Assembly (NCBI RefSeq): GCF_000701685.1
Contig: NZ_KL370813.1
Location: forward strand, 1-64,000
Direction of reading: 5' to 3'
Source of the DNA: Gemella sanguinis ATCC 700632
Lineage (GTDB): Bacteria > Bacillota > Bacilli > Staphylococcales > Gemellaceae
Length of the DNA stretch: 64,000 nucleotides
Shown here: piece after piece, positions 10,549 through 12,660 of the stretch
Layout of the letters: every line of letters starts with the position of its first letter
Numbering within the stretch: position 1 is the stretch's first letter
Notes under the pieces: generated by a model
Seen by the model: the letters and a program-made list of their open reading frames with translations, nothing else
Told to the model about the DNA's origin: nothing
The model's database searches: none
Position numbers and translations under genes: made by a program

Positions 10549-10587
10549 AAAAACAAGAACCAAGTCTATAGCTTGATTCTTGTTTTT
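10549..10587. terminator. Bidirectional terminator overlapping the UPF0223 coding end
   Basis: aaaaacaagaaccaag pairs with cttgattcttgttttt with T tracts on both strands. The stop codon of the minus-strand gene sits in the loop, so the last codons form one arm. Confidence 0.85.
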
Positions 10588-10832
10588 TCGTTTTTCATTT
10601 CTTTTGTTGTTTGATATCCATCATATCCCGTAATTTCTTTAAAATCACGATATAAATTATTTTCTTCAGATTTTGAGCGCACAATTGATTTAAATTCTTT
10701 ATAACACTCTTTATAATCTGCAAGGTCAACACCTTGTGTATAGCATTCTTCTATCATATCTAAAAATTTTATAATGATAGTAATTTCATCTACATTATAT
10801 AATGAATAATCGATAGGATAATTAAATTCCAT
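10566..10832 (-). CDS. UPF0223 family protein (YktA-like)
   Basis: An 88-residue soluble protein. The order of features (aromatic-rich start FNYPIDYSLYNVDEI, then EECYTQGVDL, YKECYKEFKSIVRSKSEE and GYDGYQTTKE) follows the UPF0223 family of Bacilli, whose role is unknown. It lies eight bases after the response-regulator gene in the same direction and probably shares its transcript; its ribosome site (AGGT) is weak, suggesting coupling. The final codons are built into the terminator stem. Confidence 0.85.
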   Translation of the reverse strand: MEFNYPIDYSLYNVDEITIIIKFLDMIEECYTQGVDLADYKECYKEFKSIVRSKSEENNLYRDFKEITGYDGYQTTKEMKNEKTRIKL

Positions 10833-10840
10833 AACTATAC

Positions 10841-11515
10841 CTATTCAAAAGTATATCCAACACCACGAACAGTTCTTAGATTTTTATCGTATCCAATTTT
10901 TCTAAGTTCTTTTCGTAACCCTGAAATATATACTTCAATCGCGTTAATTGTTGTTTCAGAGTCTACACCCCACACGCGGTCAAATATTTCTTCTTTTTCT
11001 AAAACGATATTGTTATTGATTACAAAGAAAGATAATAGTTCTAAATATTTACCTTTGATTGTATCTAATGTTTTTGTATCAGTTTTTACTAACTCATTTT
11101 TTAAGTCTAAAACAAGGTCTTTATAAGAAACTTCATTCTCTTCTTTTAAGTTACTCTCTCTTTGTAGCAAGTTCGACATTGTTGTTAACAATAGAGAAGC
11201 ATCTGCTGTTCTAGGAAGATATTCAGTCACTCTATGTTTCATAACTCTTGCTTTTTCTTCGTTTGATTCGGCAATTGTAAGAATAATAACTGGTGTTTTC
11301 TGTTCTCTTATTTCACGTGCATAGTCTAATACATCTATTCCACTTTTTCCTGGTAAAATGCTATCAGCAATAATAAAGTCATACACATTCTCATCCACAA
11401 GTTTTATTCCATCTAGTCCATCATAACAAACATCAGCATCAAATTTCTCTGAAATAGCTGCTTTTAGCGAAGCTGCTAAAAATTTATCATCTTCAATTAT
11501 AAGTGCTTTCAGCAT
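10841..11515 (-). CDS. OmpR-type response regulator with atypical receiver, no kinase nearby
   Basis: A 224-residue two-domain regulator: receiver (1-115) and winged-helix DNA-binding domain (about 128-224, ending VRGVGYTFE). The acidic pocket (Glu8, Asp9), the phosphoacceptor Asp51 in FIIADSILPG and Thr80 are kept. The invariant Lys that follows strand 5, normally in a (T/S)-K-P motif, is replaced: the sequence reads EYLPRTAD, with Arg102 at the Lys place and Thr103 for Pro. No histidine kinase gene is adjacent. Such changes are seen in regulators that work without ordinary phosphorylation. Starts at an ATG with AAGGAGGAG. Targets unknown. Confidence 0.9.
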   Translation of the reverse strand: MLKALIIEDDKFLAASLKAAISEKFDADVCYDGLDGIKLVDENVYDFIIADSILPGKSGIDVLDYAREIREQKTPVIILTIAESNEEKARVMKHRVTEYLPRTADASLLLTTMSNLLQRESNLKEENEVSYKDLVLDLKNELVKTDTKTLDTIKGKYLELLSFFVINNNIVLEKEEIFDRVWGVDSETTINAIEVYISGLRKELRKIGYDKNLRTVRGVGYTFE

Positions 11516-11582: not shown

Positions 11583-12008
11583 CTACAAACTATGATTTTT
11601 TTCACTTTTTTTAGTTACAAAATAGGTGAATAATATATTTACTACCAATATCCCAAAAAAGGCTCCACATGTATCTAAAGCCACATCCTTAATATTCCCA
11701 TCACGTCCTGGAACAAATAACTGATGAATTTCATCAGTTATTGCATAAAACATCGAAAATATTAAACTAGCTATAGATACTCTTATTGTTTTATTATTTT
11801 TTATATCCTTTATTAATAAATTTGCAAAATATATAAAACTCCAAAATCCCAGTATGGCATATTCACTAAAATGCCCTAATTTTCTTATAAATAAATTATT
11901 AGATATTTTTGAGGAATCCTCTCCTGGTTGATTCGAAAATAAAAATATTAAAATACAAATAACAATTACTATACTAAGTGAATAGTATTTTTTGTATAAA
12001 AGTTTAAT
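11583..12008 (-). CDS. VanZ-like membrane protein, apparent AUU start
   Basis: An intact frame of about 141 codons with no ATG, GTG or TTG near its front. It reads KLLYKKYYSLSIVIVI, then FSNQPGEDSSKISNN, LGHFSEYAILGFWSF, YAITDEIHQLFVPGRDG and DVALDTCGAFFGIL, the complete VanZ pattern (four membrane segments, the DEIHQ-FVPGR and D-x-x-x-D-x-x-G motifs). A strong AAAAGGGGAAA site lies eight bases before an ATT at 12008 that matches where homologues begin, so initiation at AUU is the simplest reading; the alternative is a recently lost start codon. VanZ proteins confer low teicoplanin resistance in some species, but most family members have no known role. Confidence 0.75.
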   Translation of the reverse strand: MKLLYKKYYSLSIVIVICILIFLFSNQPGEDSSKISNNLFIRKLGHFSEYAILGFWSFIYFANLLIKDIKNNKTIRVSIASLIFSMFYAITDEIHQLFVPGRDGNIKDVALDTCGAFFGILVVNILFTYFVTKKSEKNHSL

Positions 12009-12258
12009 AAAAATTTCCCCTTTTATAATATGTTTTATATTTATCTTTCTATATCTATATTACCACATTATTAATATAATTGATAATATTTAAATCTGAA
12101 ATAAGAAAAAAAAATACTTTTTATATATTAAAAAATCCTCTGTAGCCTTAACAATCTTATATTTGGAAGAACTTATAGATATAATTAAAAATTTGCTTAT
12201 TTTGTTTAGTTTTATTTGTAATTTTTATTAATTTTTTAAAGAAATATTTTTCTAATTG

Positions 12259-12619: not shown

Positions 12620-12621
12620 TA

Positions 12622-12660
12622 GAAAATAGGATTTAAGAATTATCTTAAATCCTATTTTTT
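12622..12660. terminator. Bidirectional terminator
   Basis: aaaataggatttaaga / tcttaaatcctatttt with T runs on both strands; serves DUF1904 (plus) and the ABC exporter (minus, whose stop codon it touches). Confidence 0.8.

Follow-up and report, generated by a model that had tools for sequence, protein, structure and literature searches.

A VanZ-like gene of Gemella probably translated from a conserved AUU codon

A VanZ-like gene in the window (the complete stretch of 64,000 nucleotides of Gemella sanguinis DNA analyzed here) carries an ATT triplet, AUU in the mRNA, at a proper distance from a Shine-Dalgarno (SD) sequence and at the head of an intact coding sequence. This arrangement is conserved throughout the genus, and the related genes of the sister genus have canonical starts. 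We consider it very likely that translation of vanZ is driven by the SD sequence and begins at this AUU (position 12008), with a low yield and with exposure to the proofreading activity of initiation factor IF3.

Reading frame, leader, and gene neighborhood

The vanZ-like gene forms a single open frame on the minus strand (window 12059-11583, stop codon at 11583), which bears out the initial annotation of an uninterrupted VanZ frame. Its product matched the VanZ profile PF04892 with 70.7 bits (cut-off 30.1) and the NCBIfam model NF037970 with 84.8 bits. Counted from the ATT at 12008-12006, the coding sequence (11583-12008, minus strand) comprises 141 codons plus the stop, and no ATG, GTG, or TTG occurs ahead of codon 86. 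The canonical codons inside the frame are an ATG at 11753 (codon 86), a GTG at codon 109, and a TTG at codon 121, so that the earlier statement that the frame has none of the three holds for the N-terminal half but not for the whole gene of the window; it is literally true of two Gemella species (L007 and L008), where all three are missing across the entire frame. A start at the ATG at 11753 would yield a protein lacking both RKxxH and its first membrane helix. At four loci (L003-L006), a stop codon is found five codons upstream of the ATT; taken with the empty frames of L007 and L008, this makes a canonical start hard to accommodate. Internal candidates are present as an ATG at codon 13 in L004, L006, and L009 and as a TTG at codon 11 in L002; these could give a shortened VanZ minus part of the first membrane helix. 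A terminator-like hairpin followed by a T run, possibly due to chance, was seen within the coding sequence (11661-11682, minus strand) of the window copy.

The SD sequence AAAAGGGG (12017-12024, minus strand), in which AAGGRG is invariant in the nine Gemella genomes, has a predicted duplex energy with the anti-SD of -8.4 kcal/mol, compared to a median of -9.4 kcal/mol among 267 large genes from this genome. The ribosome site that had been described as strong is therefore present but is better called ordinary. Its GGGG occupies 12020-12017, and the ATT sits 8 nt past it, in agreement with the spacing proposed initially; no canonical alternative competes at this place. The 8-nt spacer AAATTTTT (12009-12016, minus strand) is identical in length and sequence in all nine genomes. 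A predicted extended -10 element, TGGTAATAT (12057-12065, minus strand), corresponds to a TGnTAnnnT located 50-54 nt upstream of the ATT at all nine Gemella loci. The promoter call is based on this conservation because a general consensus scan was uninformative in the AT-rich upstream DNA. From the position of the element, the transcript would be expected to start near 12049, with a predicted leader of about 40 nt that contains no AUG. Translation from an upstream ATG in another frame, which had been named as a finding that would speak against the AUU, was looked for and rejected: every candidate is at the predicted -10 element or further upstream, and that of the window, ATG TGG TAA, ends immediately. 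Between the predicted promoter and the ATT, the only start codon found at the nine loci was the GTG of L002 at -37, which is followed in frame by an early TAA.

Downstream of vanZ are an OmpR/PhoB-type response regulator gene (10841-11515, minus strand; PF00072 and PF00486), which has a normal ATG start and a strong SD sequence, and a UPF0223 gene (10566-10832, minus strand; PF05256) as the third member of the cluster. In 9/9 Gemella genomes, vanZ is located between a DUF1904 gene and these two genes. No van resistance enzyme was found among the neighbors (response regulator, UPF0223, DUF1904, and an ABC transporter), and the vanZ of the window lacks the vanHAX/vanY surroundings of a glycopeptide resistance cluster. 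The DUF1904 and ABC transporter genes are convergent, and a strong two-way terminator-like hairpin of 18 pairs was observed between them (12621-12660).

Conservation in Gemella and starts in related VanZ genes

An orthologue of vanZ was present, in the same gene order, in each of the nine Gemella genomes searched, with protein identities of 51-61% to the window copy. The start region AAGGRGAAATTTTTATTARA is kept in all of them, and the block formed by the SD sequence, spacer, and ATT is identical apart from a single A/G position in the SD sequence; a canonical start at this place was found in none (0/9). This 20-mer occurs once per genome, always at vanZ, and its reversed control never occurs in the nine genomes. 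No shared regulator site is therefore visible, and the idea of a motif common to other genomic sites was rejected.

The third base of the start codon is T throughout, over a tree whose third-position length was roughly estimated at ~6.7 substitutions per site. The two other invariant isoleucine columns of VanZ are column 120, which mixes ATA and ATT, and column 21, which is always ATA. Synonymous divergence of vanZ among the nine species is saturated, and dN/dS ranged from 0.09 to 0.32 for all pairs, with the exception of one saturated pair and of the near-identical pair L004/L006 (0.58, from few changes). The motifs RKxxH in helix 2 (R42, K43, and H46) and DxxxD in helix 4 (D108 and D112) are invariant in the nine sequences; with the profile match, they place the protein in the VanZ-2 family of the Lipocone superfamily as defined by these motifs (PMC12419801). 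The invariant residues and the dN/dS values, mostly 0.1-0.3, indicate that vanZ is not a decayed gene. The authors who described the Lipocone superfamily predict that VanZ proteins act on lipid-linked cell-wall precursors (PMC12419801), and the VanZ proteins of enterococci and pneumococci lower lipoglycopeptide binding (PMC7146870). Gemella VanZ probably acts on lipid-linked cell-wall precursors as well.

In six genomes of the sister genus, vanZ has an ATG, GTG, or TTG at the homologous codon or adjoining it. The best aligned case is L010, where ATG-KLLYSR corresponds exactly to ATT-KLLYKK of the window; at the remaining loci, the N-terminal length is off by a few codons. Downstream of vanZ in this genus, the response regulator and UPF0223 genes come next in four of the six genomes, and UPF0223 alone in two. 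A wider set of 80 VanZ loci of named genomes was gathered by an alignment scan, a single-sequence scan having given no match. When canonical codons were sought in an interval reaching 15 codons upstream and 9 codons downstream of the aligned start, only two loci, both from Gemella, had none near the aligned N-terminus, although many of the 80 were aligned too loosely for an exact start position. Given the canonical starts of the sister genus, the simplest history suggested by these alignments would be a single switch to AUU in the ancestor of Gemella that has been retained since.

Proposed initiation at AUU and competing readings

IF3 destabilizes initiation complexes on AUU, AUC, and AUA. In the mechanism that we propose, the ribosome would be positioned by AAAAGGGG 8 nt upstream of the AUU, and initiator fMet-tRNA would begin on this codon with poor third-position pairing. 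IF3, which rejects mismatched start codons, would discard many of these complexes, so that VanZ would be made at a low level, around a tenth of that from AUG if it behaves like cvfC1 of Staphylococcus aureus, and the level would rise upon a fall in IF3 activity. With a transcript presumably shared with the downstream genes, the membrane protein would be scarce relative to the response regulator encoded after it. IF3-dependent discrimination probably operates in Gemella, since infC itself has no normally spaced canonical start in any of the nine genomes (L017-L025). Its start region (1483-1503 in L023) reads GGAGGTGCTG-ATC/GTC-ATT-AGTAAA, with GTC in G001 and G007, ATC elsewhere, and an invariant ATT AGT AAA. 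The infC start would be either the ATC/GTC or the ATT, the latter having the same 8-nt spacing as in vanZ. The known action of IF3, the precedents of cvfC1 and sigR, and the infC genes of Gemella together lead us to the view that vanZ is translated weakly from AUU. The persistence of the odd start in 9/9 genomes points to what is probably a brake on the amount of protein, not a broken gene, and control of vanZ through changing IF3 levels is plausible.

Whether IF3 varies enough to turn this AUU into a switch is close to a coin toss. We give a little under an even chance to a constant throttle, in which the AUU is the start and keeps VanZ low while IF3 never varies enough to regulate it. The AUU of S. 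aureus cvfC1 gives ~10% of AUG expression, unchanged between media (PMC13009471), which fits such a throttle; however, a weaker SD sequence could reach the same low level, and it can be argued that the genus-wide retention of AUU, and not of GTG or TTG, suggests a role specific to AUU. The choice of start codon alone also leaves the unusually frozen spacer unexplained. Among the 20 bases preceding the start, 13 are invariant for vanZ compared to 7 for the neighboring response regulator gene (starts found in 7/9 genomes), yet the regulator protein is far better conserved than VanZ. Tuning of initiation is the simplest reading of the invariant spacer. These bases, fixed in both length and sequence across the spacer, could instead mean that AAGGRGAAATTTTTATT is frozen by a second function, such as a small-RNA or protein site or an RNA structure, with AUU being used because the site forbids ATG. 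We regard this as unlikely: the 20-mer recurs nowhere else in the nine genomes, no significant folding was detected at the vanZ start (z -0.3 to +1.9), the alignment structure is weak, and no Rfam family matched. An RNA switch or thermosensor was rejected on the same folding and Rfam results.

Less probable still is initiation at another near-cognate codon close by (the ATT at 12014, or one internal to the gene), with the ATT at 12008 simply encoding isoleucine. The ATT at 12014 is likewise invariant in the nine genomes, but a distance of only 2 nt separates it from the GGGG, which is less than usual spacing allows, and the common KLLY aligns the L010 ATG with 12008. The initial annotation had offered as its alternative a gene that has just lost its start, to be recognized by orthologues with ATG and decay elsewhere. 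The lack of a canonical start upstream of codon 86 would suit such a gene; however, all nine orthologues have the ATT with an intact frame, and the species are alike in this respect at saturated synonymous divergence, under purifying selection and with their motifs preserved. A decaying vanZ is thus barely credible, and the genus-wide conservation of its frame refutes its status as a pseudogene. Initiation at the AUU at 12008 remains our preferred reading, and the orthologue comparison supports it.

Rarity of AUU starts and comparison with known systems

We screened 843,624 bp (47% of the genome), containing 618 gene-like frames with a minimum length of 150 codons, for a near-cognate codon placed by an SD sequence with no canonical start before a transmembrane segment. 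The sensitivity of this screen is limited for short membrane proteins, as vanZ itself scored only 22. Besides vanZ, it returned one further gene that we find convincing and one orphan of ambiguous status. With a single other convincing case in 844 kb, AUU starts appear to be rare here too, and the idea that this genome uses AUU widely was rejected. An MFS gene flagged in the window (45546) was treated as ordinary, with an ATG directly after the GAG in 9/9 genomes. A phage-tail-lysozyme-like gene (PF18013, 116 bits; L142:19293-19931, plus strand, equal to G000:C4:99293-99931) has an SD sequence followed by ATT-AAA-AAT and no ATG, GTG, or TTG ahead of its membrane helix. Its relatives in G002 (L148) and G008 (L147) and a neighboring paralogue (L149) show ATT or ATA after the SD sequence and no clearly placed canonical start. 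This gene may be a further non-canonical case and is put forward as a lead only. The 651-codon orphan (L134:16764-18719, minus strand, equal to G000:C2:176764-178719), found within the genus in this genome only, has an SD sequence 8 nt before an ATT and an ATG seven codons further on without one. In L107 (approximately G000:C6:92057-92413), a frame of KPTDKPADKPTD-type repeats that includes a run of N was observed, and the frame fragments near it resemble decayed or repeat-rich surface-protein genes.

It is conceivable, if rather unlikely, that AUU-like starts on cell-envelope genes (VanZ and the lysozyme-like exported enzyme) form an IF3-dependent regulon separate from infC. Through such a regulon, cell-wall enzymes that are potentially harmful would be coupled to the state of the translation machinery. 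AUU starts are beyond the reach of most gene finders, so the annotations of Gemella genomes probably omit vanZ, shorten it, or list it as a pseudogene. A start codon that turned from canonical to AUU in the ancestor of Gemella, and has remained fixed while synonymous divergence reached saturation, would provide a clean natural test case, and it bears on whether selection for low or IF3-controlled expression keeps non-canonical starts in place.

To our knowledge, few bacterial genes besides infC have a conserved AUU start. No report of a non-canonical vanZ start was found in the literature searched, with most subscription journals outside its scope; AUU starts as a kind are already known, and the vanZ gene and the genus Gemella appear unreported as an instance. 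The infC genes of Escherichia coli and relatives (AUU, AUC, or AUA) resemble vanZ in the conserved odd start, AUU after a good SD sequence, and the expected sensitivity to IF3. However, infC encodes IF3 and is thereby autoregulated, whereas VanZ is an unrelated membrane protein without a role in translation. E. coli pcnB is reported to begin with AUU. Borrelia burgdorferi pncA (bbe22) also has an AUU start (PMC13398362). Both are like vanZ in placing AUU on an ordinary chromosomal or plasmid gene that is easily misannotated, but their proteins are unrelated to VanZ. The VanZ-2 family (PMC12419801) and the enterococcal and pneumococcal VanZ proteins (PMC7146870) share the Pfam VanZ domain, RKxxH, and DxxxD with the Gemella protein; a canonical start lies close to the aligned N-terminus in the remaining VanZ relatives of our comparison but not in Gemella vanZ.

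Within the same order, S. aureus cvfC1 (AUU) and ccpN (AUA) combine a conserved odd start with proper SD spacing, as vanZ does (PMC13009471). The cvfC1 start is conserved in its genus and gives ~10% of AUG expression, and we count its first position in its operon as a further likeness to Gemella vanZ (PMC13009471). The two S. aureus genes differ in having extended SD pairing and measured initiation (PMC13009471), whereas vanZ has an ordinary SD sequence and its initiation is deduced. In Streptomyces, the GTC start codon of sigR places a gene other than infC under IF3 and sets its level against that of the next gene of the operon (PMC5472188). Like vanZ, sigR has an odd start conserved in its genus, and its product is lowered relative to the next gene (PMC5472188), as we propose for VanZ. 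IF3 repression was demonstrated experimentally for sigR, with GUC as the codon, whereas in vanZ the codon is AUU and the part played by IF3 is proposed here by analogy.
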